Source of the DNA: a virus
Length of the DNA: 46,719 nt
Virus record (IMG/VR): IMGVR_UViG_3300028363_000003
Location: 1 to 46,719 of that record
Reading direction: 5' to 3' (one strand)
A model generated the notes under the pieces. It made no database searches. It was given only the letters and a program-made list of their open reading frames with translations, and was not told the DNA's origin. The position numbers were made by a program, and so were the translations under genes. Positions 5,942-37,685 of this stretch are shown here, one piece after another (position 1 is the stretch's first letter; each line of letters opens with the position of its first letter).

Positions 5942-6475
5942 TTAATAACCTGAGTCGTAAGAGTTGTTCTTCGACAAGTTGTCTGTGGCTTTAATGATGT
6001 GTAGGTTATCTGCTACGTGCAGGCCTGAGACGTTAGTACCCTGAAGTGGAATCCTGTGGTCAACGTGGTATGCCTCACCCTTGAGCCTACTTATAGCTGA
6101 GCAAAGCTTGTAAATTAACTTTATCTTCGTATGGTCAGCCCAGGTGGGTGTTCGTTGGAGTACCGCTGCTCTTCGCTTAGCTACTCTTGCAGCTCCACTA
6201 CCACCCCTGTCCCGTAACCTTGCTGTCTCGTTAACTCGCTCTCTGTTGTCTTTCTTCCACGTGCTGTTTTGTGCTCGTTCCATGTACTTTTCTTTATTAT
6301 CTTGGTAGTGCTTTACACCTGCTTTGGACTTACGTTCTTTGTTACCTCTGTTCCACTCTGTTGATCTAGTCCTTGAACAAGGTTTGCAAGTATAAGCTTT
6401 ACCAAGGGGAAAACTCTTTACATTGTAAAAGCAATCAAGACTCTTTTCCTCTTTACATCGATTGCATATCCTCAT
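5942..6475 (-). CDS. HNH homing endonuclease
   Basis: 177 residues. N-terminal zinc knuckle CNRCKEEKSLDCFY with a second CKPC pair, a basic middle, and a C-terminal HNH core YHVDHRIPLQG followed by NLHIIKATDNLSKNN. This is a free-standing homing-type nuclease. It sits between terminase and portal with only 1 nt between the terminase stop and its start and 9 nt before the portal start, so it is inserted without breaking either gene. Its last residues (DSGY) loosely resemble the terminase C-terminus (SVMGY). It most likely promotes its own spread between related phages and is not needed for growth. Confidence 0.85.
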   Translation of the reverse strand: MRICNRCKEEKSLDCFYNVKSFPLGKAYTCKPCSRTRSTEWNRGNKERKSKAGVKHYQDNKEKYMERAQNSTWKKDNRERVNETARLRDRGGSGAARVAKRRAAVLQRTPTWADHTKIKLIYKLCSAISRLKGEAYHVDHRIPLQGTNVSGLHVADNLHIIKATDNLSKNNSYDSGY

Positions 6476-11820: not shown

Positions 11821-11862
11821 CCGTTACTTCGTCTTTGATGACAAGAAAGGTTTTACCTCCTA

Positions 11863-11944
11863 CCCTAAGTATAAAACCCTAAGTATAAACTAAGAGTCTT
11901 TTATAGTTTAGAGGAGTATACCTAAGTATAAGACCTTAAGTATA
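11863..11944 (+). repeat. CCCTAAGTATA repeat cluster
   Basis: Four copies of CC(C/T)TAAGTATA on the plus strand at 11863-11873, 11877-11887, 11921-11930 (10-nt form) and 11934-11944. The first two are 14 nt apart and the last two 13 nt apart. The same element recurs, also inverted, just upstream of the -10 boxes at 14904 and 21121. Behaves like a binding site for a phage regulator or replication protein. Confidence 0.6.
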
Positions 11945-11949
11945 CCCTG

Positions 11950-11980
11950 TTATACTACATGTATACTTATAGTATATAAT
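11950..11980 (+). promoter_or_regulatory. Possible rightward early promoter
   Basis: A perfect TATAAT at 11975-11980 in an AT-rich stretch next to the CTAAGTATA repeats; the best -35 candidate TTATAC (11950-11955) gives a 19-nt spacer. The -35 is weak, so this would need an activator or may be an unwinding element instead. No gene follows for 1.4 kb. Confidence 0.3.
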
Positions 11981-14783: not shown

Positions 14784-14839
14784 GGTATACTATGAAATAT
14801 AAGCTTACCAAGAAGCAAGTAAGGTACCAGTTAAACTAA

Positions 14840-14947
14840 CCTAGGGTATATACTCTAAGTATCTACTCTTCTAAACCCTTAAATACCTTAAGTATACTTA
14901 GGGTATAATAAGATACACTAAAAGAAACTTAAGTCAAGGAGAAAGTT
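14840..14947 (+). promoter_or_regulatory. Promoter/operator module A (near-copy at 21039)
   Basis: Contains TATAAT (14904-14909). Directly upstream lies the perfect palindrome TAAGTATACTTA (within 14889-14900), formed by CCTTAAGTATA (14886-14896) and the inverted TATACTTAGGG (14893-14903). Further blocks GGTATATACTCTA and ACTCTTCTAAACC, and the leader element AAGTCAAGGAGAAA, are shared with module B at 21039-21165. No good -35 is seen at 17 nt. Transcript would start the cassette beginning at 14948. Confidence 0.65.
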
Positions 14948-15343
14948 ATGCTAGAGTTTGTGCTCTTTGCTATCGACGACGGACACAACTTACACAAGCG
15001 CAAGAAGTTTATGCACTACGTGGATACTCTCCGTGCCATGGGTAAAGCATCTACGGTGCACCTTTGTGTTGGTAAGTATAAGGGGAATCTTGAAGGCTCT
15101 TACCTTATGCTCTCAAAAGACTATGACAACCACATACAAGGGCGTGAGTATGTCAAGTATCAAGAGAGTGTACTCAGGGTACCTGGTGACACTCGACAGC
15201 CCTGTGTGCTTGAGTTCTCTGATGGAAGTTCTATCGTAGCTGGAGGTATGTCACAAGTGTCCCCTGAAGCAGCAATGAAACTTGATAGTTGGACCTACGT
15301 AGAGGAGACAGGTAAGTACTTTACCTGTGGTTCCTTTGTTTAG
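14948..15343 (+). CDS. Hypothetical protein, first gene after promoter A
   Basis: 131 residues, soluble, no cofactor motif. Begins MLEFVLFAIDDGHNLHKRKK; the middle contains LGVG-like KASTVHLCVGKYKG and the C-terminus ends TGKYFTCGSFV. Excellent AAGGAGAAAG ribosome binding site. It overlaps the next small gene. No family recognised; by position it may belong functionally to the amidoligase cassette that follows. Confidence 0.65.
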   Translation: MLEFVLFAIDDGHNLHKRKKFMHYVDTLRAMGKASTVHLCVGKYKGNLEGSYLMLSKDYDNHIQGREYVKYQESVLRVPGDTRQPCVLEFSDGSSIVAGGMSQVSPEAAMKLDSWTYVEETGKYFTCGSFV

Positions 15344-15557
15344 TGTGGGTGACAGGGTACAGTGTGGAGATGGCAATGAAGTATTCACAGTCACTGCTGT
15401 TACTGACGCTCCACCCCGGGTAAGCTTAGGTGGTACCCGCGACCATTGGTATCCCTCACGTATATTCACTCTAGTAACCCCTGTTGCTCCTGTCAAGCCT
15501 AAACTAACAGGTATGGCTCAGTTCCTAAAGGATACGGAGGATAAATATGTCACGTAA
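15336..15557 (+). CDS. Small SH3-like protein, paralogue of 21166 gene
   Basis: 73 residues from TTG at 15336, chosen because the resulting MFSVGDRV aligns with MFQVGDEV of the gene at 21166; a longer GTG start (15327) exists. The body is short beta-strand-like segments (VFTVTAVTD, RVSLGG) and both proteins end with KPKLTGMAQFLKDTE or its close variant. The VGDxV start and strand pattern suggest an SH3-like or KOW-like barrel. Both paralogues follow copies of the same promoter module, so this is a duplicated unit. Function unknown. Confidence 0.6.
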   Translation: MFSVGDRVQCGDGNEVFTVTAVTDAPPRVSLGGTRDHWYPSRIFTLVTPVAPVKPKLTGMAQFLKDTEDKYVT

Positions 15558-15852
15558 AGTACTAGGTATCACTGCTCACTTCCGTAGACAAGACGGTAAA
15601 CCAGAGCTTGATATGGAGAAGATCAACCCTGACTGGTCCTACGCCCTTGATAATCCCCGGAGTACCCTATGTAGCTCCTCCTTAAACACACTCCTAGAGA
15701 CAGGAAAAGGATTATCAAGAGCCTTTACATGGTCATCTACTCCTCAAGGGAGGGGGTACTGGTCTCGTCTCTGTGAAAACGGTGACGGGTGTGCTATCCT
15801 CTCGGAGGAAGACAAGGAGTATACCCGCTATCTCATGAGGGAGCACACCTAA
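15547..15852 (+). CDS. Hypothetical protein
   Basis: 101 residues with RSTLCSSSLNTLLETGKGLS, RAFTWSSTPQGRGYWSRLCE, and ILSEEDKEYTRYLMREHT. Preceded by GGAGGATAAAT; overlaps the previous gene by 11 nt. Occupies the same position behind the paralogue as the 71-residue gene at 21359 does behind its partner, but no clear sequence similarity. No family recognised. Confidence 0.6.
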   Translation: MSRKVLGITAHFRRQDGKPELDMEKINPDWSYALDNPRSTLCSSSLNTLLETGKGLSRAFTWSSTPQGRGYWSRLCENGDGCAILSEEDKEYTRYLMREHT

Positions 15853-15897
15853 TGAATTACAATGAGTTTATGCGTAAGCTAGACGGAAGGAAATCAA

Positions 15898-16854
15898 ATG
15901 ACACTACTAATCGTACGACGGAGACGCCTCGGGCACTCGACTTGCAAGGCATTATCAGGTTTGCTATCAGACTTGGGCACTCCGAACAAAGTTTGGCGCA
16001 ACGACCAAACGTTCCCGACCTCCGAGAGGCTAGCTTCTGGGCAGGGTTTGACGGGTATCGTGCGTTGGGGGTGTACGGCGACGGTACCACGATCTTCTAC
16101 TGCTCGGGTGCCTGTTATAAACTTAGCCTCGGGGATACACCAAGTGAACAACAAGACCCAGTTCCTCCTGAAGCTACAAGAGAGTATGCTGGATCAGACG
16201 GGCTTGCTTCCCGTGTTGACTAGTATGAACGTATCTATGGGTGCAGGTTCCGGTGGGACACAAGTGACAGATGGCAACCAACAGTGGGTAGTGAGACCCC
16301 ACCAGCACAGCCAAGGGAGGAACCTAGAGGTGTTAACTCAATCGCAACTGAGCACGAGACTCGCACAAGGGAGTCTGAACGGGCACTATGCGAGACCCTT
16401 AATCGAGAAGAAAGCAGAGTACAGGGTTTACGTGGTGAATGGGAGGGTTGTGAACGTAGCTCAGAAGACCCCTGGTGATCCCTCTTCAGTAGCATGGAAC
16501 GTGGCTCAAGGTGGGAGGTTTGACAACCTACGCTGGGGTGACTGGCCTATGAAGGTGGTTGACCTTGCTTGTCGTGTCTTCCCTCACACAGGGTTGAACA
16601 TCACAGGTATTGACATCATGGTTGACCACGATGATGAGGCGTGGTTCATCGAGGCTAACTCCGCCCCCTCACTGCCCTTCAACTCCGATGGGTCCACTAC
16701 CTACCGCCAAGAGTGTATTGCAAAAGCGATACACTACACACTGACAGTTAACAAGGACATGATTGATGCCGAAACAAACAACGGGTGGCGGGGCTACGTA
16801 CATCCAGCAATCTGGTCAACGACGAGAGAAAGCGAAGCAAGGGTTCAAAGCTAA
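15898..16854 (+). CDS. ATP-grasp peptide/amide ligase
   Basis: 318 residues. N-terminus MTLLIVRRRRLGHSTCKALS followed by GIVRWGCTA and VINLASGIHQVNNKTQFLLKL, the pre-ATP-grasp part of RimK-like ligases. The ATP-binding core contains EYRVYVVNGRVV and the metal-binding motif GIDIMVDHDDEAWFIEANSA with Asp239, Glu252 and Asn254. Such enzymes join a carboxylate to an amine through an acyl-phosphate. GGAAGGAAATCAA precedes ATG. It overlaps the downstream cyclotransferase by 89 nt and opens the six-gene amidoligase cassette. Predicted to add amino acids (perhaps Glu) to a peptide, metabolite or wall component; the substrate is unknown. Confidence 0.8.
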   Translation: MTLLIVRRRRLGHSTCKALSGLLSDLGTPNKVWRNDQTFPTSERLASGQGLTGIVRWGCTATVPRSSTARVPVINLASGIHQVNNKTQFLLKLQESMLDQTGLLPVLTSMNVSMGAGSGGTQVTDGNQQWVVRPHQHSQGRNLEVLTQSQLSTRLAQGSLNGHYARPLIEKKAEYRVYVVNGRVVNVAQKTPGDPSSVAWNVAQGGRFDNLRWGDWPMKVVDLACRVFPHTGLNITGIDIMVDHDDEAWFIEANSAPSLPFNSDGSTTYRQECIAKAIHYTLTVNKDMIDAETNNGWRGYVHPAIWSTTRESEARVQS

Positions 16855-17239
16855 CCCTCGGGTCTTTGTCTACGGAACACTCAAGGAAGGGTACGGTAAC
16901 AACCGTTTGCTTTCTCACTCGAAGTTCCTTGGCGCTGCTCAAAGTGTCGGTAACTTCGTGCTTGGTAACGTAGGTTTTCCCTATGCTTTCCCTTCTGACG
17001 CAGTGCCAGAGCAGTACAAAAAGCTTTGCTTCCCTGTGGTGGGTGAGCTTTATGAGGCTGACAGTGTAGAATCTTTCCTCAGCCTTGACTTCCTAGAGGG
17101 TTACCCCTCTCACTACGACAGGCGTATCACAATGTTTGACAATGACGTCAACGCTTGGATGTACGTTCAACCTGACTGGTACAACGCACGGTATTGTGAT
17201 GCGTGTACCTTAGAGAATGGAGTTTGGTCATGGCCTTGA
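16766..17239 (+). CDS. Gamma-glutamylcyclotransferase-like (GGCT/AIG2) protein
   Basis: 157 residues from ATG at 16766. Residues 33-50 read VFVYGTLKEGYGNNRLL, the family signature; the second half has VVGELYEADSVESFLSLDFL followed by EGYPSHYDRR, with the expected catalytic acid at Glu111. The first ~30 residues are an extra polar segment encoded within the overlap with the ATP-grasp gene. Enzymes of this fold release 5-oxoproline from gamma-glutamyl amines. Here it could remove or edit gamma-glutamyl groups added by the neighbouring ligases. It overlaps the next amidoligase gene by 10 nt. Confidence 0.85.
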   Translation: MPKQTTGGGATYIQQSGQRREKAKQGFKANPRVFVYGTLKEGYGNNRLLSHSKFLGAAQSVGNFVLGNVGFPYAFPSDAVPEQYKKLCFPVVGELYEADSVESFLSLDFLEGYPSHYDRRITMFDNDVNAWMYVQPDWYNARYCDACTLENGVWSWP

Positions 17240-18105
17240 CACTAGACCGGAGCGGAAGCTTCCCTCGTGTTGCTACAAAACGTAAGACAAAAGTTTCTGT
17301 TGGCTTCGAGTGGGAGGTACCAGCAGACATAGAGGAACCAGAGTGTACCTGTTGTGAGGAAGGATACATAGACGAGGATGGTAATCGAGAGGAATACTGT
17401 TCATACTGTTGCGGGGAAGACGGCTCTAGGGTAGACCTCAACCGTGTGACAAAAGACTTCATTGAGACACACGGTTTCCGTACTCACATTGAGTGCGGCG
17501 GTACAGAGTTTGCATCTCCTGTGTTTGGTAATATCACAACAGCACGTAGGGTTGCTGGTCTCCTTAAAGGTGTGGCCTTACAGGACCGTGCCCTTGGCCC
17601 AGAGGTGGCTGACTACAATGCCTGCGGTATACACGTTCACACAGGACACACTGACTGGAACAAAGGGGTTGGTTATGAGTACTCTACTGACGTAGAGTCT
17701 GTCTATGCGCAGGTTGTCTCTATGCTAAACCGTAAGAGTTCTGCTGCTTTTGTGCTGGAGTTTTCTGGGCGGGAGAATGGTAACACACATTACCTTACTC
17801 AAGCTGTGTCTTCTTGCTGGGACTATACTGAGGGTGTTACCACACCAACGAGAGAGCAGCTCTCCTACATGAGATGTATGAAAATGGTTCGTCCCAATTG
17901 TTTTGGAAGAATAGGCACTGTTGAGTATCGTCTGTGGGATGCTGCTGAAGACAGGTTGATCCCTGCTATTGAATTTGCCCATGCCTGCACGACCTTCATC
18001 ACTCGACGTAAGGATATCCCTTACCTCAAAGAGTTTAAACTGTGGCTTGACAGGCAGTCAGGGTACAAAGTTTTGAAACAAGACAACGCTTGGCGTTTAC
18101 TCTAA
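17230..18105 (+). CDS. Amidoligase-like enzyme with Cys-rich knuckle
   Basis: 291 residues from ATG at 17230 (GGAG 7 nt upstream). Amidoligase (glutamine-synthetase/glutamate-cysteine-ligase fold) features: VSVGFEWEV (Glu27, Glu29), GGTEFASP (Glu93), CGIHVHTGH (His135, His137) and GTVEYRLW (Glu232, Arg234). Between the first strand and the next motif is a cysteine cluster, ECTCC (Cys39, 41, 42) and CSYCCG (Cys57, 60, 61), resembling a DnaJ-type zinc knuckle. The family forms amide bonds using ATP. It is one of two consecutive amidoligases here, so a two-step or heteromeric reaction is plausible. The substrate is unknown. Confidence 0.8.
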   Translation: MALTLDRSGSFPRVATKRKTKVSVGFEWEVPADIEEPECTCCEEGYIDEDGNREEYCSYCCGEDGSRVDLNRVTKDFIETHGFRTHIECGGTEFASPVFGNITTARRVAGLLKGVALQDRALGPEVADYNACGIHVHTGHTDWNKGVGYEYSTDVESVYAQVVSMLNRKSSAAFVLEFSGRENGNTHYLTQAVSSCWDYTEGVTTPTREQLSYMRCMKMVRPNCFGRIGTVEYRLWDAAEDRLIPAIEFAHACTTFITRRKDIPYLKEFKLWLDRQSGYKVLKQDNAWRLL

Positions 18106-18115
18106 GGAAAACCAC

Positions 18116-19402
18116 ATGACCTATGTAACACTCAAACTCGATAACTGCTTCCTCGTGTCAACAGTAAGGGATGACTGGGTACGGATTGATGGCTCACCCA
18201 TTGCACCATACACTGATCGTTGGTTTCAGGACCCGGCGTTCATTGCCTCTCTTGCGACCAACACTTGGGGCTCTGTTATAGCTTTCGTAAAGAAGAACGA
18301 AGATGAACTAAGAGCGGGCATCTACACGGGATACTTTATCTCTGACCTGCTATCCACCCCGGAAGAGGTTCTCTCTAAGCCGGTGGTCAAAGTAAACCTA
18401 GGAAATATAAGGGACTCTACTTCGGTGCTCTTCACAGAACCTCAGGGGGGTGCAAAACCGTATGTACAGTATGATGGTTTCTCCAAGCAACCTAACTTTC
18501 CTCTGACAAAGAGGAGCACTGCGGTCTTCTTAAACGTATACTCCTCAGCCTACGTACGGGGTTTGAACAGTACCATGACAGCCGTTCGTACCCCTTCTCA
18601 GGTTATGAACTACACGTATCGTCCTGACTACAAGTTCATGGCTATGCCTAAGGAAAAGACAGAGTGTTTCTTTGGTCTTGAGCTGGAGGTTAACTCAAGG
18701 ATTCCTTGGGACGATGTCTACCGCACAATGACAGAGGTCTTCCCTGTCCAAGAACCATTCATCTTTGCTAAGTCTGACTCCAGTATTAGCGGAGATTTTC
18801 TTAACAGTTACGAGATTGTCTCACACCCTATGTCACCCCGGCGTATGCGGGCCGAGTTCAGAATCCTGTTTACCAAACTTGAGAGACTCCTTAAGGAGAA
18901 GAACATGGTATGGGAAGAGAACTTTGACATGGTAACTAAGAGTACAGGTATACACGTCCATGTCTCTAAGACAGCGTTCACTCCTTTGTCTCGGACACAC
19001 ATGAAGAAGTTCATGCTCTTATGGAACACTTCAGGCTCGACGGTCTCCTCATTCACGTCTCAACTTGCCTGCCGTGAGACTAAAGGCAACCACTACATCA
19101 AACCTGCTGAGAGTTACCGTGGTCGTTCCCTTGCTTGGATGCTTCGGGAAGGTAAGAATAGTGAGCGTTACGCAGCCTGTAACGAGACACGGGAAACTGT
19201 TGAGGTCCGTGTCTTTCGTGGTCAACCTTGTCTCAAAGCTGTGTGTCACGCTATCGACACAACAGAAGCTATGCTCAAGTTTACTGAGCAGGCGTCGATG
19301 TCTCAACTGAACCGTCGCTTCCCTACCGCTTTCAAGTCTTGGTTGGGTAAACAGAACAAGAACTCTTATCGTTCCTTGAAGGAGACTCTCAAATGTGCTT
19401 AA
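18116..19402 (+). CDS. Second amidoligase-like enzyme with N-terminal extension
   Basis: 428 residues. The C-terminal ~240 residues are amidoligase-like: FFGLELEV (Glu189, Glu191), AKSDSSISG (Asp221), SYEIVSHPMSPRRM (Glu233), TGIHVHVSK (His280, His282) and ETVEVRVFRG. The first ~180 residues are a separate, unrecognised domain with beta-like segments (VIAFVKKNEDELRAGIYTGY) that could bind substrate or a partner. It lies 10 nt after the first amidoligase and overlaps the following amidotransferase gene by 10 nt. Similar two-motif organisation to the upstream enzyme but much diverged, so the two probably have different substrates. Confidence 0.8.
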   Translation: MTYVTLKLDNCFLVSTVRDDWVRIDGSPIAPYTDRWFQDPAFIASLATNTWGSVIAFVKKNEDELRAGIYTGYFISDLLSTPEEVLSKPVVKVNLGNIRDSTSVLFTEPQGGAKPYVQYDGFSKQPNFPLTKRSTAVFLNVYSSAYVRGLNSTMTAVRTPSQVMNYTYRPDYKFMAMPKEKTECFFGLELEVNSRIPWDDVYRTMTEVFPVQEPFIFAKSDSSISGDFLNSYEIVSHPMSPRRMRAEFRILFTKLERLLKEKNMVWEENFDMVTKSTGIHVHVSKTAFTPLSRTHMKKFMLLWNTSGSTVSSFTSQLACRETKGNHYIKPAESYRGRSLAWMLREGKNSERYAACNETRETVEVRVFRGQPCLKAVCHAIDTTEAMLKFTEQASMSQLNRRFPTAFKSWLGKQNKNSYRSLKETLKCA

Positions 19403-20400
19403 TCATAACACGAGAACCTAACGTCACTCTTGACAAAGTGAAGTTTGACACAGCTGTGTTGAACAACCCCGATGGCTGGGGTATCTCTGTACCTGACATG
19501 GAGGGACAGCTCTACACTACACGGAGTGTCACTACTGACAAGGAAGAACTCTATGATCTCTTGCACGGAGAGTTCAAGGGTGACCGCCTACTCCTTCACC
19601 TCCGGTACACTACCGCTGGTGACACAGTGTTACGTAACTCTCACCCCTTCCCTGTGCTTGAAATGGGTACGCATGGTGTTGACATGCGTGTAGCACACAA
19701 TGGGACGCTCACTAAGTGGTCTCCTCCCGTTGCTGGGGCAGGTAGCTGGGAGTCTGACACTCGTCGCTTTGTACGAGGCTATGTGCGTCCCCTTATGGAG
19801 CGTATGATTAGGGGGCACTCCAGTGAGGACGTTCTGTCTGACCCCTTCGTCGATACTTTACTCGACAACCAGCTCACCAGTGCGTCTGTCCTTGCGTTCA
19901 TTGATGGGTATGGCAACACAAGCGTCGTTAATGCTAAGGGTAACGGTGGTTTCACTGACGATGAAGGGACCTACTTTAGCAACAAGTACTCCCATGACCC
20001 AGGCCACCGTGTGCCTACCCCTGTGACTCACGGAGGTTCGTACAAGCCTATGGGAAAGAAGACTGGGACGACTACTACTACGGGTCGTCCCGCTACTGGG
20101 ACGAAGGCTACTGGGGCCAAGAAGTACTTCACTGATTGCGTCACTCAATCCTTTATGGAGAAGTATGAGGTGGATGACCCAGCTGATCTTGCTCTAATGT
20201 CGGATGAGACTATCCAAGTACTCGTAGAGGATGAGCCTGAAGATGCTATCCTTCTTATCAAAGAACTCTTGGCTCTGCACTATCGTGAGTGTCGTGCTGT
20301 CACCTCTCTGGTAAACAATGGAGCACTTAAAGATAAGCAGATCAAAGACTTACAAGACAAACTTAATGTAAAGGCGGTGCTCTCATGCCCAACCTCCTAA
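19393..20400 (+). CDS. Class II glutamine amidotransferase-like (Ntn hydrolase)
   Basis: 335 residues beginning Met-Cys; removal of Met would expose Cys2 as nucleophile. Diagnostic motifs follow: NNPDGWGI (25-31), LLLHLRYTTAG (Arg71), NSHPF (82-86) and VAHNGTL (Asn103, Gly104), which build the glutamine site and oxyanion hole. The C-terminal ~130 residues after a Thr/Gly-rich linker (TGTTTTTGRPATGTKATGAK) form a helical domain with no synthase activity recognised. The domain normally releases ammonia from glutamine for a partner ligase, so it may feed the amidoligases, or hydrolyse a gamma-glutamyl product. Coupled to both neighbours by overlaps of 10 and 16 nt. Confidence 0.82.
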   Translation: MCLIITREPNVTLDKVKFDTAVLNNPDGWGISVPDMEGQLYTTRSVTTDKEELYDLLHGEFKGDRLLLHLRYTTAGDTVLRNSHPFPVLEMGTHGVDMRVAHNGTLTKWSPPVAGAGSWESDTRRFVRGYVRPLMERMIRGHSSEDVLSDPFVDTLLDNQLTSASVLAFIDGYGNTSVVNAKGNGGFTDDEGTYFSNKYSHDPGHRVPTPVTHGGSYKPMGKKTGTTTTTGRPATGTKATGAKKYFTDCVTQSFMEKYEVDDPADLALMSDETIQVLVEDEPEDAILLIKELLALHYRECRAVTSLVNNGALKDKQIKDLQDKLNVKAVLSCPTS

Positions 20401-21044
20401 CCTTTGAACCTAAGACTAAACCAGAGGAAACAGCTAAGGAATATGCTAACTCTTTCGTTGACTACCTCAATGAAGACGTCTCGTTCTCTAACACACCTGA
20501 CTTGCCTGTCCTACGGTATGCTAAGATCATCCCTGTCTTTATCTGGGATGAACTCAAGACCTACAAAGGTCTAGCCGAGGCAGCAAACATCACACATGAT
20601 ATGCACGAGACAGATCAGTACCTTGTACACAGTAAGCAGAAGTATCTTCCGTTCATCAATGCCGCTGACAAGCCGGGGTCTCATCACGACATGCTCTTGC
20701 CTTCCAGCCCTGAGTGGACTAAGGGTTTCAAGGTTAACCCTATGAAGAACATCCCCACTCGACACTTAGCGGGACGCATCATCCACGTAAACCTTGAGGC
20801 TATCCAGTCTCTCGATCGCTACTACTACAACACTTCTTTCCACGTACGTCACAAGGCTTTGTTCTGCCGCCCTCAAGGTGCGCAAGAAGAGCTGAGTGCT
20901 TGGCTGTACACTGTGCCCACTCGTAACATCACTAAGTACCTTCCTCATGAGAACACCTACGAGATGCTACGGGGCTTCAGACCTAAGCAGTGCTCAAGTA
21001 ACATGGGTGGCCCTTACACAAGTACGCACCAACGTCCAACCTAA
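20385..21044 (+). CDS. Degenerate GGCT-like protein, last gene of cassette
   Basis: 219 residues. Compared with the GGCT gene at 16766, IIPVFIWDELKTYKG resembles its VFVYGTLKEGYG strand-loop, and LAGRIIHVNLEAIQSLDRYY followed by AWLYTVPTRN resembles its VVGELYEADSVESFLSLDFL and C-terminal strand. The catalytic Glu position is Tyr here, so a binding or scaffolding role is more likely than catalysis. The N-terminus (about 45 residues) is extra. The alignment is by eye and weak; an unrelated fold is possible. It overlaps the amidotransferase gene by 16 nt and ends just before promoter module B. Confidence 0.5.
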   Translation: MPNLLTFEPKTKPEETAKEYANSFVDYLNEDVSFSNTPDLPVLRYAKIIPVFIWDELKTYKGLAEAANITHDMHETDQYLVHSKQKYLPFINAADKPGSHHDMLLPSSPEWTKGFKVNPMKNIPTRHLAGRIIHVNLEAIQSLDRYYYNTSFHVRHKALFCRPQGAQEELSAWLYTVPTRNITKYLPHENTYEMLRGFRPKQCSSNMGGPYTSTHQRPT

Positions 21045-21165
21045 GGTATATACTCTAGGCACTATACCCTGAGTGTTATACTCTTCTAAACCTTTAAATA
21101 CTTAGGGTATATACTTAAGGTATAATAAGATAGCAGACTTCTTTTGTAAGTCAAGGAGAAAAGAT
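21039..21165 (+). promoter_or_regulatory. Promoter/operator module B (near-copy of 14840)
   Basis: Shares with module A the blocks GGTATATACTCTA, ATACTCTTCTAAACC, TTAAATAC, CTTAGGGTATA, GGTATAATAAGATA and the leader AAGTCAAGGAGAAA. TATAAT lies at 21121-21126, preceded by CTTAGGGTATA and TATACTTAAGG copies of the repeated element. Spacing between blocks differs slightly from module A. It drives the small-gene block starting at 21166 and probably the integrase. Confidence 0.65.
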
Positions 21166-21375
21166 ATGTTTCAAGTAGGAGACGAGGTAAGAAACTATTC
21201 CACAATCTACACTGTCGTGGGGGTGGTAGGTAACCGTGTAAGTGTCATTGATGAACAGGGTCAAAACACGGGGGGCACCTTCTCTATGTCTTCGTTTACC
21301 CTAGCCAAACCTAGACTAACAGGTATGACACAGTTCCTCAAAGATACGGAGAAGAAGTATGAAACACTTAGCTAA
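21166..21375 (+). CDS. Small SH3-like protein, paralogue of 15336 gene
   Basis: 69 residues beginning MFQVGDEVRN, with strands IYTVVGVVGNRVSVI and the shared C-terminal KPRLTGMTQFLKDTEKKY. The matching gene behind promoter A has the same start and end, so gene and promoter were duplicated together. Strong AAGGAGAAAA binding site. Function unknown. Confidence 0.65.
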   Translation: MFQVGDEVRNYSTIYTVVGVVGNRVSVIDEQGQNTGGTFSMSSFTLAKPRLTGMTQFLKDTEKKYETLS

Positions 21376-22949: not shown

Positions 22950-23453
22950 ATGGATAGTAAAGTTTGTCTAACATGTAAAGAAGAGTTACCAGTAGACAGT
23001 TTCTACACACGCAAGTATTCAAAAGACTCAGGCTCAGTTCCCTTTGGGGAGTGTAAGACGTGCGCTAATGTGAGGGCTACTAAAAATAGAAAGAGCAGAC
23101 GTGCTAAAAAACCTAAAGAGTTCTACGAAAAGGAACGTAACTACGGTAAGAAACACTACGCAGCTAACAGAGACGTATACAGGAGCCAAAACCTCAAGTC
23201 ACTTTACGGGATAACACTTGAAGACTGGTACAGAATGTATGAGGAGCAAGACGGTAAGTGTGACATCTGTCAGAAAGACTTCCCTAAGGAAAGACAGAGG
23301 TGTAACTCTAAGTCTCTTGCTGTCGATCACTGCCACGACACAGGTAAGGTTAGGTCTTTACTCTGTGTGAACTGCAACATGGCTATCGGAGGTCTACGAC
23401 ACGATGAAAGTTTAGTTAAGAAAGCTCTTGCGTACTTAGTAAAACATAAATAA
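22950..23453 (+). CDS. HNH endonuclease, endonuclease VII-like
   Basis: 167 residues. N-terminal zinc pair VCLTCKEELPVDSFY and CKTCANVRATK, basic middle, then endonuclease VII/HNH core: YGITLEDWYRMYEEQDGKCD, CDICQK, and VDHCHDTGKVRSLLCVNCN. AGGAGAACAGT upstream. Closely similar in plan to the gene at 29768 (both have GITLEDxxRMY and VDHCHxT). It could be a homing nuclease or a resolvase-type nuclease; the abundance of similar genes here favours homing. Confidence 0.85.
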   Translation: MDSKVCLTCKEELPVDSFYTRKYSKDSGSVPFGECKTCANVRATKNRKSRRAKKPKEFYEKERNYGKKHYAANRDVYRSQNLKSLYGITLEDWYRMYEEQDGKCDICQKDFPKERQRCNSKSLAVDHCHDTGKVRSLLCVNCNMAIGGLRHDESLVKKALAYLVKHK

Positions 23454-23885: not shown

Positions 23886-24294
23886 TGTAAAAGATGAAGC
23901 TCTGGAAGTATTCATGTTAAATAATACAACAGAAGACACACCCTGCCGCAGCCTTATAACAAAAGCATTCAAAGAGGGATGGAAGGCACGTAAGAAATCT
24001 GAGTACGAGGAAACAGAGTACATCCGCAAGGATACCTACGGCGCAGTGGTTGCTGACCTTGAGGAAGTAAGGGAAGAGTTAACCTGGGAATATGACACAG
24101 GTCACCTTATAAGATCAGCCGCAGACCGTATCACCGAACAGGCGGCTGAGATTGAACGGCTGCGCGATGCTTTGAACCGCATCGTTTCAGCGTCTGATTA
24201 TTACTGTAGAGAAAACACCGATCATGAAGCGATGACACTCGCCTATGCCCACAAATCGACAGGACACATCGCCCGCGCCGGTCTCAAGGAGTAA
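23878..24294 (+). CDS. Alphaproteobacterial-prophage-like hypothetical protein
   Basis: 138 residues. The middle and end (SAADRITEQAAEIERLRDAL and TGHIARAGLKE) strongly resemble a repeated type of small helical protein in phages of Rhodobacterales and relatives. It contains a coiled coil. The nucleotide sequence of its 3' half (24100-24290) is richer in GC and in CG dinucleotides than its neighbours, pointing to recent transfer. AAGGAGAACAAG precedes the ATG. Function unknown; it is useful mainly as a hint to the host group. Confidence 0.6.
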   Translation: MTNVKDEALEVFMLNNTTEDTPCRSLITKAFKEGWKARKKSEYEETEYIRKDTYGAVVADLEEVREELTWEYDTGHLIRSAADRITEQAAEIERLRDALNRIVSASDYYCRENTDHEAMTLAYAHKSTGHIARAGLKE

Positions 24295-24295
24295 T

Positions 24296-26878
24296 ATGAA
24301 ACAAAGCACACCCCCAATTAAGACACACCGTACCTGCCCCTCGTGTGGTGCAGGGGGTAGCTACTCAGTGTGGGCTAACGGTGCTGGCTATTGCCACTCC
24401 TGTGACAAGTCCTCACGAGGCGAAGCTACCCATGAGAAACAAGTAGAACGAAAGGAACCAAGCCCTATGACAACAGACCTAACCCTTAAGTACCACCCTA
24501 TGCGAGGCGTAGATGGTGACGTAGAGAAGTTCTACGGGGTACAGACAGGTATGTCTGAGAGTGGTGACCCAGTCACCAGAGTATACCCTTACCCTCACCG
24601 ACCCAAGACACGTATCCTACCCAAAGACTTCTCTAAGAACTATGGGTTTACCAACGATTACCTCTTTGGTATGGACAAGTTTAACGCAGGTAGCTCTAAG
24701 TACCTGACGATTACTGAAGGGGAGGAAGATGCTCTTGCTGCTTACCAACTGTTAGGCAAGACTTTCCCTGTTGTATCCCTACCTTCTGCTGGTTCAGTCA
24801 AGTCTGTCCTCCAGAATAAAGAAGCATACAACTACATCAAAGCTTTCTCTGCTATCATCCTCGCTACTGATAACGACGAGGCAGGTAACAAGAGTGCAGA
24901 GATTCTCCAACGTGCATTCCCAGGACGGTGCTACCGTGTGAACATGTCTACCCACAAGGATGCCTCGGCATACCTACAGGCTGGTCACGGTTCAGACTTC
25001 AAGTATGCTTGGATCAATCGTCAGAAGTACGTACCTGACAATGTGTTCAACACGACAGACCAGTTCGAGAAGATTATCCGTGACGACAAAGGCTCTATGT
25101 ATATCCCAACAGGTATCAAAGACCTTGACTCACGGTTGCTTGGGCTTATGCAGGGTCACTTTACTGTGTTTACTGCACCAGAGGGCGTTGGCAAGCAACT
25201 ACCGAACACGACCCTTATACCTACACCTACTGGGTTTCAGACTATGGGAGGGTTAAAATTGGGGGATGAGGTTGTAGGTGGTGATGGTAAACCAACTAAA
25301 ATTACGTACATCACGGAGACACAGCACAACGTACCTTGCTTTGAGCTTACGTTTTCTGACGGCACAACGCAGGTAGCTGGTGGCCCACACAGGTGGGGTG
25401 TTGTTAACACTGACGGCAAGTATAAGGTTAAGACTACTGACGAGATTATTGAGGAAGGCGTAACCCGTGGAGACGGTGTAGCATTGTACTCTGTCCCTAT
25501 CTGTCAACCTCTTGTCCTGCCTACTGCTGATCTAGTCCTCGATCCTTACTCATTTGGACTTTGGCTTGGGGATGGAAACTCCTGCAGCCGTGGTATTACA
25601 GTGGGGTACACTGACCGAGAAGTCTTTGAGACTCTTACTGATGTTGAAAGATGTGTAGAGTATCCAGCAGGTGTGACTTACTACTTGAATACACTAAGCC
25701 ATAAAGACCTTGTGTCTGAAGGAGTCTTAAAGAATAAACATATCCCAGAGGACTACCTTCGGGGTTCTATTGAACAACGTACCCGTCTATTGCACGGTAT
25801 GATGGATAGCGACGGGGGCACACAGGGTTCTGGTTGTGAGTTCTATACTTCAAGTGCCCAGCTACGGGATGACTTCCTTGAGCTTGCCCGTAGTCTTGGC
25901 TACAAGTGTCGAGTACGTTCTAAGCAGAGTAAACTGTACGGTGTCCCTAAGAAGATAGCATACACTGTTTGGTTCTTAGCTCACGGTGATCGACCCATCT
26001 TTAAGTATCCCCGTAAACAGGATAAGGTTGTCTACTGTAAGACACGACGAGCAACACACAAGACTATCCGAAGCATTGTACCTGTGGAATCAGTACCTTC
26101 ACGTTGCTTGACAGTTGACAATGAGGATCACTTGTTCCTCTGTGGTGAGGCCTATACTGTGACGCATAACACAGAGCTTATGCGTAAGCTGGAGTATAAC
26201 CTCTTGGCTAACCACCCTACTATTCCTATCGCTATCATGCACCTTGAGGAAACAAAGAAGCGTAGTCTCCTAGGTCTTGCATCATATTTCTTAAACAAAG
26301 ATGTGACACTACAGGACACAGAGACAATCACTAACGATAGGGGTGACGAGGAGATTGTATACCTCCCGAGTTACAAGGGTACCTCAGAGGACGAAGTGCT
26401 ACAGGCTATCAAAGAGTTTACTGATCGTGAAAACTTCTATCAGTTTACCCTAAGTGTAGACGATGACCCTATGTCTATCCTCGAACAGATCAGGTACTTT
26501 GCTGAGGTGTGTGGCTGTCGGTACGTGTTCTTTGAACCTATCCAAGACCTAGCCTACTCACGGCAGAGTGAATCAAGTATCGAGGGATGGCTCAGTGAGC
26601 TGTCTACTAAGCTTGCCCGTCTTGCCACTGAGCTAGGGGTAGGTATCGTGTCTATTGCTCACGAGAATGACGATGGGCAGATACGTGACTGCCGTATGAT
26701 TGGTAAGCGAGCCAGTGTTGTCATCAAGTTAAGCCGTGATAAGCTTGCCGCTGATGAGGAGACTAAGAACACAACACAGCTTCTTGTAGATAAGAACCGA
26801 CCCGTCGGGCCAACAGGCTTCGGAGGTATGCTAGAATTTCACCCCGAATCTTTCACACTTTCAGAAAAGGAATTTTAG
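24296..26878 (+). CDS. Primase-helicase (T7 gp4-like) with intein
   Basis: 860 residues including a 325-residue intein; mature protein 535 residues, close to the T7 gp4 length. Zinc-binding primase start CPSCG (Cys14, Cys17) and CHSC (Cys33, Cys36), TOPRIM core with TEGEEDALA and ATDNDEAG, then a RecA-type helicase with Walker A APEGVGK joined after splicing to TEL. Later helicase motifs include HLEETKKRSLLG, FFEPIQDLAY and VDKNRPVGPTG. Start chosen at 24296 because AAGGAGTAAT precedes it. It primes and unwinds DNA at the fork for the DNA polymerase at 27569. Its last residues LSEKEF recur at the end of the next gene. Confidence 0.9.
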   Translation: MKQSTPPIKTHRTCPSCGAGGSYSVWANGAGYCHSCDKSSRGEATHEKQVERKEPSPMTTDLTLKYHPMRGVDGDVEKFYGVQTGMSESGDPVTRVYPYPHRPKTRILPKDFSKNYGFTNDYLFGMDKFNAGSSKYLTITEGEEDALAAYQLLGKTFPVVSLPSAGSVKSVLQNKEAYNYIKAFSAIILATDNDEAGNKSAEILQRAFPGRCYRVNMSTHKDASAYLQAGHGSDFKYAWINRQKYVPDNVFNTTDQFEKIIRDDKGSMYIPTGIKDLDSRLLGLMQGHFTVFTAPEGVGKQLPNTTLIPTPTGFQTMGGLKLGDEVVGGDGKPTKITYITETQHNVPCFELTFSDGTTQVAGGPHRWGVVNTDGKYKVKTTDEIIEEGVTRGDGVALYSVPICQPLVLPTADLVLDPYSFGLWLGDGNSCSRGITVGYTDREVFETLTDVERCVEYPAGVTYYLNTLSHKDLVSEGVLKNKHIPEDYLRGSIEQRTRLLHGMMDSDGGTQGSGCEFYTSSAQLRDDFLELARSLGYKCRVRSKQSKLYGVPKKIAYTVWFLAHGDRPIFKYPRKQDKVVYCKTRRATHKTIRSIVPVESVPSRCLTVDNEDHLFLCGEAYTVTHNTELMRKLEYNLLANHPTIPIAIMHLEETKKRSLLGLASYFLNKDVTLQDTETITNDRGDEEIVYLPSYKGTSEDEVLQAIKEFTDRENFYQFTLSVDDDPMSILEQIRYFAEVCGCRYVFFEPIQDLAYSRQSESSIEGWLSELSTKLARLATELGVGIVSIAHENDDGQIRDCRMIGKRASVVIKLSRDKLAADEETKNTTQLLVDKNRPVGPTGFGGMLEFHPESFTLSEKEF
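25196..26170 (+). mobile_element. Class 3 intein with LAGLIDADG endonuclease motifs
   Basis: 325 residues inserted in the helicase P-loop between GVGK and TEL. Block A: TTLIPTPTGFQTMGGLKLGD. The first residue is Gln, so the normal N-terminal nucleophile is absent. The class 3 trio is present: Trp67 (block B, PHRW), Cys304 (block F, SRCLTV) and Thr323 just before the terminal His-Asn (VTHN), with Thr at +1. A LAGLIDADG-type endonuclease lies in the middle: FGLWLGDGN and RLLHGMMDSDGG. It should splice out of the protein and its nuclease could home into intein-free helicase genes. Confidence 0.88.
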
Positions 26879-26879
26879 A

Positions 26880-27410
26880 ATGTGTAAAGAAAGTGTACCT
26901 TCGGAAAAACAACTCTTGCTGATGATTAAAAACTTTAGGTTAGAGGAGGATGGCAAGCTTTACTGGAAAGTATCCCCAGTGCACAACGCAACTGTAGGTT
27001 CTGAAGCAGGTACGTATAGAAAGGGTTACAGGTCTGTTAAGATTAAAGGTACGCAGTTTTACACACACAGAGTAGTGTGGTACTTGAGGTACAGCGAATG
27101 GCCAAGTGACCAGATTGATCACATAAACGGTGTAAAGGATGACAACAGAGTAGAAAATCTAAGAGTGGTGTCGCCGGGTTTAAACCAAAGGTCTTACTGC
27201 AAGCCCAGAGGAGGGTACTCGAAGTACCGAGGAGTTTCTTATCATAAAAGTATGTCTAAGTGGATAGCCCAGGTAAGGTATGAAGGTAAACTCCTATACT
27301 TAGGTGCCTACGACAGCGATAAAAAAGCAGCTCTAAGGTATAACGAAGCCGCCTTAGAACTGGGGTTTAACAAAGAGGCTTTAAACATGCTATCAGAGAA
27401 GGAGTTCTAA
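26880..27410 (+). CDS. HNH endonuclease with AP2 DNA-binding domain
   Basis: 176 residues. N-terminal HNH_3 part: KLYWKVSP, YRSVKIKGTQFYTHRVVWYL, then QIDHINGVKDDNRVENLRVV. C-terminal AP2-type DNA-binding domain: YRGVSYHKSMSKWIAQVRY and LYLGAYDSDKKAALRYNEAA. A known homing-nuclease arrangement. It follows the primase gene with only 1 nt between, and its final LSEKEF and stop copy the primase end with synonymous codon changes, including the embedded Shine-Dalgarno for the next gene. Insertion therefore kept downstream translation intact. Confidence 0.88.
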   Translation: MCKESVPSEKQLLLMIKNFRLEEDGKLYWKVSPVHNATVGSEAGTYRKGYRSVKIKGTQFYTHRVVWYLRYSEWPSDQIDHINGVKDDNRVENLRVVSPGLNQRSYCKPRGGYSKYRGVSYHKSMSKWIAQVRYEGKLLYLGAYDSDKKAALRYNEAALELGFNKEALNMLSEKEF

Positions 27411-27568: not shown

Positions 27569-29003
27569 ATGACCCTAGTAGTAGTCTCGGATTGCGAAAC
27601 AGATGGGCTAGACCCTGACAACCTGTGGTGTGTGGTCAATAAAGAACTTGGAGCTAAGTCCTACAAAACGTGGGACTTCAACTCAGGGTATGAAACCTTC
27701 ATTGACTACGCAAAGACAGTAGACCGCTGGGTATTCCACAACGGTATAAGCTATGATGGTCCCGTGATAAACAAACTACTCGGGTCCACCGTGATTGATC
27801 CCTTTAAAATCTGTGATACTTTTGTTGTGTCCCGCCTTGTTAACTACATGGGGTACAACGGTCACGGACTAGATGAGATCGGTATCTCCCTTGGGCAGCC
27901 TAAGACAGTCTTCAATGACTGGGAGAAGTACACACCAGAGATGTTGTCCTACTGTAAGGATGACGTAGACCTAGGCACAAAGATATACAATAAGTACAAG
28001 AAGTATATCGACGACCCTGCTTGGGCTATGTCTATGGAGACTGAGCACCGGATGGCTATGTTGTGTAAGAAGATGCACGACAATGGTTTCAAGTTCAACC
28101 TTCAGTTAGCTAACGAAGTCCTACCTCAGATACAAGACAGACTTGACGAACTTAGCGCAGGGATGCAACGTGCTTTCCCACCTGAGCTTAAGGAGGTTCA
28201 CCGTATCCAGTACCGTACTAAGGCAGACGGTGAGCTCTACGCTACCACAGCTAACGCTATGGATAACTTCCCTAAGACTGTGATCGACGGTGATGAGCTG
28301 GTGTGTTTCGATTGGGTATCGTTTAACCCTGGGTCACACCTGGATCGTATCGATAAACTCTGGGATGCAGGGTGGAGCCCTACTGAGAAGTCTAAGGCAC
28401 ACTATAAGTTCTCTCAACGGGGTGCAGTAGGTGACAAGTGGGGTAAGAAAGTCCTTACTCAGGAGACGTATGACGCTAAGAAGGAAGAGTTCGAACACTA
28501 CGGCTGGACGGTAAGCGATGAGAACCTTGAGACACTCCCAAGCACAGCCCCTCAGGGTGCTCGTGACCTTGCTGAGTGGTTGTGCCTCAACGGTAGACTA
28601 AAGCCACTAGAGGAGCGTATCAGGGAGTGTGAGAGGGACGGACGTATCCGCACTAACTTCTGGCATATCGGGGCATGGACCCACCGTATGTCCCACTCGT
28701 CTCCTAACCTAGCTAATATCTCCTCACCATTTCAGGGGGAAGTAGTCACTGCTGTTGACCTTGTTAAGGAGAGGTTCGACGGTCAACTACGTGCTATGTT
28801 TACAGTGGACGAAGGCAACTGGCTAGTAGGTACAGACGCTGAGTCTATCCAGCTACGTATCCTAGCTCACTACCTAAAGAACGACGAGTACGTTAAGGCT
28901 ATCACTGAAGGGAGGAAAGAAGATGGAACAGATATCCACAACGTTAACCGTGCAGCACTCGGACTTGAGCACCTTACTCGGGACCACGCCAAAACTTTTA
29001 TCT
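27569..29003 (+). CDS. DNA polymerase family A, exon 1 (exonuclease and most of polymerase)
   Basis: Codes for residues 1-478 plus the first base of codon 479; unspliced translation would stop at 29017. Proofreading exonuclease motifs: SDCETDG (Asp8, Glu10), FHNGISYDG, and YCKDDVDLG. The polymerase part has RMSHSSPNLANI (motif A region upstream), VGTDAESIQLRILAHYL (motif A) and RDHAKTFI, the first half of motif B. Motif B is completed only by exon 2. The enzyme is T7-like and replicates the phage genome with the primase-helicase. Joined length is 638 residues, slightly short of T7 DNA polymerase. AAAGGAGTAGGAC precedes the start. Confidence 0.92.
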
Positions 29004-29299
29004 TAAAGCTAGGATAACTTAGGGGTAACCCTTCGATTAAAACCTCGTGAACTCAGGGGAGGCCTCTAGTAGGTAATCCTGAGCCAAGCTAAGTAAACAA
29101 AAAGCTATTGATTACTTAGAAGGTGCAACGACTATCGAAAGCACATCGAAAGATGGAAGTTAGTAGAGTACACCCAAGTGGGTGGAAGCGCGAGGCTCCT
29201 GCTGTAAGCAGGATGATGATATAGTCTAGTCTATGCGGCGACGTGTAGCAGTTCATAAGAGAACGGGCTGAGCTTAACGAACTCAGTTGAATAAAAACG
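29004..29299 (+). ncRNA. Group I self-splicing intron in DNA polymerase gene
   Basis: 296 nt, no open reading frame inside. P1: exon end TTATCT (28998-29003) pairs with GGATAA (29012-29017), giving the expected U-G pair at the splice site. P6-like stem CTAAGTAA/TTACTTAG (29089-29096, 29112-29119). P7: GACTAT (29130-29135) with ATAGTC (29221-29226). CTCTAGTAGGTAATCC resembles the P4-P6 region of phage td-type introns. The last base is G (29299). Joining T29003 to A29300 restores motif B as KTFIYAWLLGAG in frame. Confidence 0.9.
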
Positions 29300-29781
29300 A
29301 TGCTTGGCTACTCGGAGCAGGAAACGGCAAGGTCGCTAGAATCTTGGGCTGTACAACACGACAGGCGAAGGGGGCGGTGGATTCTTTCGTTGACCGTACC
29401 AAGGGACTTGGGAAACTTAAATCAGGACTTATCCGTAGGGATGCAGCCCGAGGTTTCTTTGAAGGTTTCGACGGTAGAAAAGTTATCTGTCCCTCAGAGT
29501 ACTTAATGTTAGCAGGTTATCTGCAGAATGGAGAGGCTGTAATCATGAAGAGAGCCAACTGGCTATGGGACAAGTGGTGCACAGAGGATGGCTTGAACTT
29601 CAAGCAAGTCAATCTTGTTCACGATGAATTTCAAACAGAAGTTTGTGGGACGTATGAAGAGGCAGAAAGAGTAGGTTACCTGCAGTGTAAATCTCTTGTA
29701 GCTACAGGAGAAGAACTCGGATTGTTTTGCCCCATGTCTGGTGAGACACGTATAGGGAGGTCTTGGCTTGAAACCCACTGA
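29300..29781 (+). CDS. DNA polymerase family A, exon 2 (C-terminal fingers and palm)
   Basis: Supplies the last two bases of codon 479 and 159 further residues. Begins with the rest of motif B (YAWLLGAGNGKVARILG), contains DGRKVICPS and motif C VNLVHDEFQTEV (palm His-Asp), and ends RIGRSWLETH. A separate start at 29287 (TTG) lies in the intron and would give a useless fragment; the splice explains the split. It overlaps the downstream HNH gene start by 14 nt. Confidence 0.9.
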
Positions 29782-30184
29782 TAAACGGTGTAAGCATTGT
29801 AAGAAGTATAAACCAGCAACCTTTGACTTCTTCTTTAGGAAAAAATCTGCTAAGGATGGTTACGCCACAGACTGTAAAGTGTGTCACGTAGCTAAGAACA
29901 AGGCAAACCCCAGCTTTGTAACACAACAGAGAAAGTCATGGTTAAAAACTAAGTATGGCATCACCCTTGAGGACTACGATAGGATGTACAAAAAACAGGA
30001 AGGACTATGCGGATGTTGTGGTGAGCCTAATAAAGAGACCTACCTCTGCGTTGATCACTGTCACTCTACTAAAGAAGTAAGAGGTTTGTTATGTCGTATG
30101 TGTAACAAGAGTATTGGCAGCCTTGGAGACACAGTTGAAGGACTGCAGAAAGCTATAGACTACCTAGAGAAACACACACACTAA
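29768..30184 (+). CDS. HNH endonuclease VII-like, next to intron
   Basis: 138 residues from TTG at 29768, which has GGAGG 8 nt upstream. Zinc pairs CKHCKKYKPATFDFF and CKVCHVAK, then GITLEDYDRMYKKQEGLCGC, VDHCHSTKEVRGLLCRMCN. Related to the 22950 gene. Overlaps the polymerase stop by 14 nt. Since the intron 0.5 kb upstream has no endonuclease of its own, this free-standing enzyme may drive collaborative homing of intron and gene together; this is an inference. Confidence 0.82.
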   Translation: MKPTDKRCKHCKKYKPATFDFFFRKKSAKDGYATDCKVCHVAKNKANPSFVTQQRKSWLKTKYGITLEDYDRMYKKQEGLCGCCGEPNKETYLCVDHCHSTKEVRGLLCRMCNKSIGSLGDTVEGLQKAIDYLEKHTH

Positions 30185-37229: not shown

Positions 37230-37685
37230 ATGATTTGTCAGGGTTGCAAGGTAGATAAACCAAAAGAAGAGTTCCCCGCTAGAAACGATAGGTCTGGTAG
37301 GTTACGCCCGTACTGTAAAGTGTGCGCTGCTGACGCACAAAGAGCAAGGTACGAAAGCCACAGAACAACTAAACCCTTTAAACACAGGTGTACGAGGGCT
37401 AAAACAAGGGCGGGAAGTCTAGACGTTCCTTTTGACTTAACATCAGAATACCTTGAGAGTATCTGGACAGGCAGGTGCCCTGTTCTAGACCTCCCTTTAA
37501 GCCTGTACACAGACAGAAAAGATGAGCTTGCGGCAGAACTAGACAGGTATCTACCTGAACTAGGGTATGTACAGGGCAATGTAAATTGGCTATCCCGCAA
37601 GGCTAACCGTATTAAAAGCAATAGCTCAATAGAAGTACATGAAAGAATGTTAACCTGGATGAAGGACGTAAGAGATGGAAGTTAA
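37230..37685 (+). CDS. HNH-like endonuclease inserted in thyX
   Basis: 151 residues. N-terminal zinc pair CQGCKVDKPKEEF and CKVC, basic middle CTRAKTRAGSLDVPFDLT, then LDRYLPELGYVQGNVNWLSR and KANRIKSNSS, characteristic of phage HNH-like nucleases of the GYVxGNV type. The His of the classical HNH motif is not obvious. Its last codons overlap the current thyX start. Flanked by the thyX remnant upstream and thyX downstream, so it inserted at the thyX 5' end and brought a replacement start. Confidence 0.8.
   Translation: MICQGCKVDKPKEEFPARNDRSGRLRPYCKVCAADAQRARYESHRTTKPFKHRCTRAKTRAGSLDVPFDLTSEYLESIWTGRCPVLDLPLSLYTDRKDELAAELDRYLPELGYVQGNVNWLSRKANRIKSNSSIEVHERMLTWMKDVRDGS

Follow-up and report, generated by a model that had tools for sequence, protein, structure and literature searches.

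A divergent six-gene amidoligase cassette in a marine podovirus

We analysed a 46,719-nucleotide stretch of viral DNA (IMG/VR record IMGVR_UViG_3300028363_000003, positions 1 to 46,719), referred to as the window, with the focus on six genes (w1 to w6) at positions 15898-21044 of the plus strand. An earlier note, made from the sequence alone, had read these genes as an amidoligase cassette. In the list of open reading frames (ORFs) of the window the six genes were found exactly at the coordinates given there, forming one unit of linked genes in the early region, near the primase/helicase gene. The cassette is best explained as a divergent, complete form of a type already known from phages, the amidoligase or "peptidoglycan modification" cassette, and its kind is not new. 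The genes are as follows.

15898-16854, plus strand: w1, RimK/cyanophycin-synthetase-type ATP-grasp ligase, 318 amino acids
16766-17239, plus strand: w2, gamma-glutamyl cyclotransferase (GGCT)
17230-18105, plus strand: w3, amidoligase-like protein, 291 amino acids
18116-19402, plus strand: w4, amidoligase-like protein, 428 amino acids
19393-20400, plus strand: w5, class II glutamine amidotransferase (GATase), stand-alone domain with a C-terminal extension
20385-21044, plus strand: w6, degenerate GGCT-fold protein

Neighbouring genes overlap at four of the five junctions (w1/w2 by 89 nt, w2/w3 by 10 nt, w4/w5 by 10 nt and w5/w6 by 16 nt), in line with the earlier description of six adjacent, mostly overlapping genes, and w3 and w4 are separated by a gap of 10 nt. 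A purine-rich stretch lies 5' of every cassette start, and the ATG at 16766 is the most likely start of w2. The w1/w2 frame overlap (16766-16854) is long also in two related contigs (98 nt in L004 and 83 nt in L009) and is absent in a third, L018.

The relatives used were the IMG/VR contigs L003, L004, L009, L014 and L018, the last being IMGVR_UViG_3300022697_000010. A 57.9-kb IMG/VR contig was near-identical to the window (99.99% identity over the part compared). L004, L009 and L018 each had all six genes in unchanged order, followed by an integrase or recombinase-like gene, and a partial cassette was found in L014 and L003. Amino-acid identity was 48-75% among the window, L004 and L009 and about 30% for L018. 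The L018 cassette is thus complete and very divergent, with a recombinase-like ORF next to it, and makes a useful outgroup for structure prediction of w3, w4 and w6. With the NG86 method pN was 0.13-0.35 as compared to a pS of 0.47-0.75, the integrase included, and omega was 0.10-0.24 where dS was unsaturated (two of the three w6 pairs were saturated). The cassette is under purifying selection wherever this could be calculated. Because the gene order is conserved and pN is well below pS, the six genes are real and selected; a coding artefact was ruled out, as the ORFs are conserved and pN is far below pS.

Enzyme families of the cassette proteins

When the cassette, w1, w3 and w4 were searched against isolated phages, at the DNA level or with single protein sequences, no match was obtained, and profiles built from relatives were therefore needed. 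Family profiles were made from the window, L004, L009 and L018 (and L014 where available) and compared with 442 ORFs of ten reference phage loci, with the unrelated ORFs of these loci serving as decoys. Since the databases were small, the profile E-values are rankings against decoys.

Three of the proteins were recognised directly. For w1 a Pfam ATP-grasp match was over the cut-off (ATPgrasp_YheCD/TTL/RimK, 1.7e-6), and the cassette-type ATP-grasp family phrog_2599 was matched with an E-value of 7.8e-18. The w1 profile found the cassette ATP-grasp genes of RIO-1, phiM6, LUZ24, UFV-P2, RHph_N3_19 and phiEco32, with reciprocal matches, and nothing else at E ≤ 1 among the 442 ORFs. Its relatives in the PDB were cyanophycin synthase (1.9e-9) and S6-L-glutamate ligase (3.1e-8), and residues E174, R176, K190, D239, E252 and N254 are invariant in nine phage ATP-grasp homologues. 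The w2 protein matched Pfam GGACT (6.2e-15) and YtfP in the PDB (1.8e-4), and has both the YGTL motif and the catalytic-glutamate motif LDFLEGY intact when aligned with LUZ24 gp22 and others. The w5 protein matched PF13230 over the cut-off (1.7e-6), and its profile matched phiM6_71 (1.2e-24), EVB99_043 (2.3e-22), MEP402 gp07 (2.3e-15) and LUZ24 gp19 (3.6e-4). Among the 442 ORFs the best matches of the w2 and w5 profiles were GGCT and GATase genes, respectively. In w5, Cys2, H69 and R71 (H69xR71), N103-G104 and D122 are invariant in eight GATases; we take these residues to correspond to the class II positions Cys1, Arg73, Asn98-Gly99 and Asp123 of GlmS.

The other three proteins needed a wider comparison. 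With three-sequence alignments, w3, w4 and w6 could not be connected to known families by hhalign, and the link emerged only once the distant L018 cassette was added. PDB sequence searches with the three proteins gave no credible match, and one scan of genome contigs did not find a cellular relative of w4. The direct matches of w4 were only to PHROGs without assigned function, including phrog_16683 (3.8e-9), which is also matched weakly by the RIO-1 amidoligase gp13. The w4 profile matched MEP402 gp06 (6.7e-14) and an annotated amidoligase gene of ctgrD200 (1.9e-8). As both of these belong with Pfam Amidoligase_2 (PF12224; 9.4e-4, just below the cut-off, for gp06 and 5.9e-7, over it, for the ctgrD200 protein), w4 is amidoligase-like. 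No Pfam or PHROG family was matched by w3. Its four-member profile matched members of the w4 family (best three 2.1e-5 to 0.012; MEP402 gp06 0.0018), and w3 is amidoligase-like because of this match to a w4 homologue. The w3 motifs GFEWE, ECGGxEFxSP, CGIHVH and ExRL are invariant in four homologues, and w4 has GxExE (187-191), YEIVSHP, GIHVHVS and EVR, so that the order GxExE, ExxSP-like, GxHxH, ExR is common to both. Judged by these profiles and motifs, the amidoligase label is right for w3 and w4, within the Amidoligase_2 superfamily, and each represents an amidoligase lineage of its own.

The match of w6 to Pfam GGACT was weak when searched directly (E-value 0.08) and stronger for the L004 homologue (7.6e-4). 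The w6 profile matched EVB99_044 of RHph_N3_19 (1.6e-6), which is itself over the GGACT cut-off and lies directly 3' of the RHph_N3_19 GATase gene, like w6 after w5. In w6, FIWD stands in place of YGTL, and LDRYYxN in place of LDxxEG, replacing the catalytic glutamate. Replacement of both signatures is kept in the window, L004, L009, L014 and L018, the L018 version of the latter being LDFHYGN. As the YGxL loop and the catalytic glutamate are lost, w6 is unlikely to be an active cyclotransferase. A proposed homology of w6 to LUZ24 gp17 was rejected in an hhalign test.

All six family labels of the earlier note were thus recovered, by Pfam or PHROG matches for w1, w2 and w5 and by profile links for w3, w4 and w6. 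The predicted catalytic residues align with the families for the ATP-grasp ligase, the GGCT, the GATase and both amidoligases, and are missing in w6, as the note already had it. Homologues also co-occur in other phages, the same functional set being found in LUZ24 (gp16-22), UFV-P2 (ORF21-29), phiEco32 (77-86), RIO-1 (8-14), phiM6 (70-78) and RHph_N3_19.

The virus and the surroundings of the cassette

The TerL protein of the window was 68.8% identical to that of Roseobacter phage CRP-13 and 60.7% to that of HMO-2011, over at least 98% of its length, and the window is therefore part of an HMO-2011-type marine podovirus. No match to the cassette was found in the stretches compared of CRP-13, CRP-9, HMO-2011 and ctYwJ313, making the cassette an optional module. 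An integrase gene is adjacent on the downstream side, which suggests a possibly temperate phage; CRP-3, also of the HMO-2011 type, has been shown to integrate. The cassette is flanked by the following features.

14839-14940, plus strand: repeated intergenic element, upstream copy, just before the ATG at 14948
14948-15343, 15327-15557 and 15547-15852, plus strand: small ORFs leading the cassette unit; two of the three are conserved ahead of the L004 cassette, and two ahead of that of L009
21039-21132, plus strand: repeated intergenic element, downstream copy, between w6 and the integrase-side genes
11861-11979, minus strand: repeated intergenic element, diverged copy, upstream of leftward genes

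The upstream copy of the element consists of a 20-bp imperfect palindrome, CCTAGGGTATATACTCTAAG, followed by CTTAGGGTATAATAAGATA and AAGTCAAGGAGAAA. In L004 (644-782) and, in a shorter form, in L009 (4721-4743) the element likewise precedes the cassette, and the downstream copy has counterparts at 10521-10624 of L009 and, as a short version, at 3360-3448 of L014. Its palindromic half-site CTTAGGGTATA occurs in 10 copies in the window (at most one mismatch) as compared to 0.98 expected, and none of the shuffles reached 10; six of the copies lie within 14839-14940 and 21039-21132. The element is likely to be the operator set of a phage regulator and would act as a shared promoter/operator, by which 14948-21044 would form one unit with the cassette. 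Counts of sigma-70-like promoters were not above chance, so the promoter reading is drawn entirely from the repeated element.

Two small paralogous ORFs (15327-15557 and 21166-21375, plus strand) lie on either side of the cassette. They are 40% identical, both have LTGMxQFLKDTExKY near the C terminus, and their 3' ends are 84% identical over 56 nt; L009 has both copies. Further away, a Group I intron (28994-29248, plus strand; Rfam RF00028, 83.8 bits) was found where the DNA polymerase ORF (27569-29017) ends and probably interrupts the polymerase gene. The primase/helicase (24245-26878, plus strand) has an intein-like insert of about 340 residues (roughly 309-647) in the Walker A region. The homologous phage proteins align with the sequence before and after the insert, one matching record is annotated as hedgehog/hint, and L004 has the same arrangement. 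Five ORFs (5942-6475 on the minus strand, 22950-23453, 26880-27410, 29768-30184 and 37230-37685) appear HNH/endonuclease-VII-like by reading alone, with cysteine-rich starts.

Predicted mechanism and possible targets

The gene identities given in the earlier note are supported, and so is its general scheme, in which ligases form amides with glutamate and the amidotransferase and GGCT edit or trim them. That the six genes belong together in a cassette of this mechanism class, sequential amide ligation with glutamyl editing, we consider probable. The three ATP-dependent ligases w1, w3 and w4 would act in sequence, making amide or isopeptide bonds in which glutamate most likely takes part. By hydrolysis of glutamine or of a gamma-glutamyl amide, w5 would supply ammonia or remove glutamyl groups, and w2 would release gamma-glutamyl residues as 5-oxoproline in a proofreading or deprotecting step. 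The w6 protein probably binds a gamma-glutamyl substrate or a partner without cyclisation. Under its own repeated control element the cassette would be made in infection or lysogeny and alter the host, most plausibly at the cell envelope, where it may exclude competing phages. The substrates, the order of the steps and the role of w6 are what we infer, and the envelope as the target is our leading guess, offered tentatively.

Several points weigh against this proposal. Action of the cassette genes at the envelope is a proposal, as are peptidoglycan modification and superinfection exclusion in the literature. Neither w3 nor w4 had a direct Pfam match, and the AlphaFold models of w3 (mean pLDDT 33) and w6 (mean pLDDT 32) were left out of fold searches. 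The cassette is dispensable to HMO-2011-type phages, as indicated by the stretches of CRP-13, CRP-9 and HMO-2011 that are without it. In the literature, with Iyer 2009 and Hardies 2013 outside the coverage, no enzymology, substrate or product was found for any cassette member. The earlier statement that no such phage pathway is characterised thus stands for the biochemistry; the cassette has, however, been described and named in several phages and is therefore less novel than the note made it appear.

The main rivals to an envelope target are a small molecule and a protein. In a small-molecule pathway with transient gamma-glutamyl protection, as in the synthesis of butirosin (BtrJ/BtrG) and ergothioneine (EgtA/EgtC), the ATP-grasp enzyme would add gamma-glutamate to an amine, w3 and w4 would elaborate it, and w2 or w5, the latter as a GATase-fold hydrolase, would remove the glutamyl group. 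The ATP-grasp gene sits next to the GGCT gene in LUZ24 and UFV-P2, and in the window, L004 and L009 these neighbours overlap by 83-98 nt; the class II GATase domain of w5 has no synthase partner domain recognised by Pfam. However, the ATP-grasp and GGCT genes are separated in RIO-1 and phiM6, we noticed no gene for a carrier protein, a tailoring enzyme or an exporter in the vicinity, and the w5 profile finds the GATase domains of GlmS and PurF in the PDB and not EgtC. We regard such a pathway as rather unlikely. Alternatively, a protein of the host or the phage, e.g. a ribosomal one, may receive glutamate or other amino acids from the RimK-like ligase and the amidoligases, which would redirect the host. 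Ribosomal protein S6-glutamate ligases are among the nearest relatives of w1 with a solved structure, and PHROGs names the w1 family "ribosomal protein S6 glutaminyl transferase". RimK acts alone, however, which leaves the co-occurrence of two amidoligases, a GATase and a GGCT unexplained, and modification of a protein seems unlikely. A further proposal, quite unlikely in our judgement, is that the cassette is not a wall system and makes a phage-specified gamma-glutamyl peptide metabolite by protection and deprotection, with w6, catalytically dead as a GGCT, serving as a chaperone or regulator that binds glutamyl groups, and with an operator shared with the integrase-side genes that would permit expression in lysogeny.

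The genes may also scavenge nitrogen or glutamate and boost host amino-acid metabolism, as was proposed for phage ZRK32, with a role in nitrogen metabolism (PMC10945688). Growth promotion by this phage, which carries genes for an amidoligase, a GATase and a GGCT, was reported in the same paper, and the ZRK32 ATP-grasp and GGCT proteins match the window-family profiles (5.9e-13 and 1.9e-17). That study used the whole phage and not the genes themselves, and three ATP-consuming ligases fit the synthesis of a specific product better, so that we find scavenging very unlikely. Finally, hypermodification of DNA with amino acids occurs in phages, and the cassette could in principle modify the bases of the phage DNA. 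The window has ThyX and RNR, and no hydroxymethyluridine or base-kinase gene was found among the scanned proteins (some ORFs were unscanned), and this explanation is improbable in the extreme.

Comparison with known phage cassettes

In earlier work a cassette of seven genes was named for peptidoglycan modification and hypothesised to prevent superinfection (PMC5498523), and the peptidoglycan proposal was repeated for phiM6 (PMC6256558), whose module counts with the cassette. Both papers trace it to Iyer and colleagues and to Hardies 2013, and for phiEco32 the prediction has been worded as fact (PMC11318856). The window cassette resembles those of LUZ24 and UFV-P2 in that the ATP-grasp, GGCT and GATase proteins are significant profile homologues, an amidoligase gene lies just 5' of the GATase gene (with an HNH gene between them in UFV-P2), the ATP-grasp gene lies just 5' of the GGCT gene, and a primase/helicase gene is nearby. 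In contrast, two LUZ24 genes, one for a PF14395 COOH-NH2 ligase and the other gp17-like, were not detected in the window or its relatives, and the gene order of LUZ24 is different; a counterpart of w6 was not found in LUZ24, and the LUZ24-type PF12224 profile did not match the window amidoligases. PF14395, as present in LUZ24, phiEco32 and RIO-1, gave no hit in the cassette proteins, and a profile of four references reached a best E-value of 0.5 in the window and relatives. By annotation phiM6 also has no PF14395 gene. We regard the PF14395 ligase as a subtype feature and not as a requirement for the cassette, and w3, an amidoligase of the w4 kind, stands in its place.

The closest GATase relatives of w5 are in phiM6, which has been described as resembling HMO-2011, and in RHph_N3_19. 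In both the GATase gene is followed by a GGCT-domain gene, as in w5-w6, and the ATP-grasp and amidoligase genes adjoin. Their GATase-linked GGCT proteins, however, retain the glutamate after LD (LDKAE/LDKYE) that is lost in w6, and phiM6 differs further in having a second GATase, a peptidase C26 and a distant GGCT. RIO-1 and PSA-HP1 share with the window an early-region set of GGCT, GATase, two ligases and ATP-grasp, in the different order GGCT-GATase-ligase-ligase-ATP-grasp; PSA-HP1 has seven genes, and RIO-1 has a COOH-NH2 ligase together with a PF12224 amidoligase. A pair like w4-w5 in the same order is found in Methylophilales phage MEP402 (gp06-gp07, with the same 10-nt overlap) and in ctgrD200 (amidoligase-GATase), whereas no ATP-grasp or GGCT match was found in the stretches of these phages that were compared.

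Amidoligase cassettes occur in phages of Pseudomonas, Escherichia, Pseudoalteromonas, Rhizobium and marine bacteria. Very different phages have the ATP-grasp, GGCT, GATase and amidoligase parts in common, and the PF14395 ligase, the gp17-like gene and the degenerate GGCT are exchangeable. The window carries a compact set of six genes that could be expressed as one unit for finding the product.

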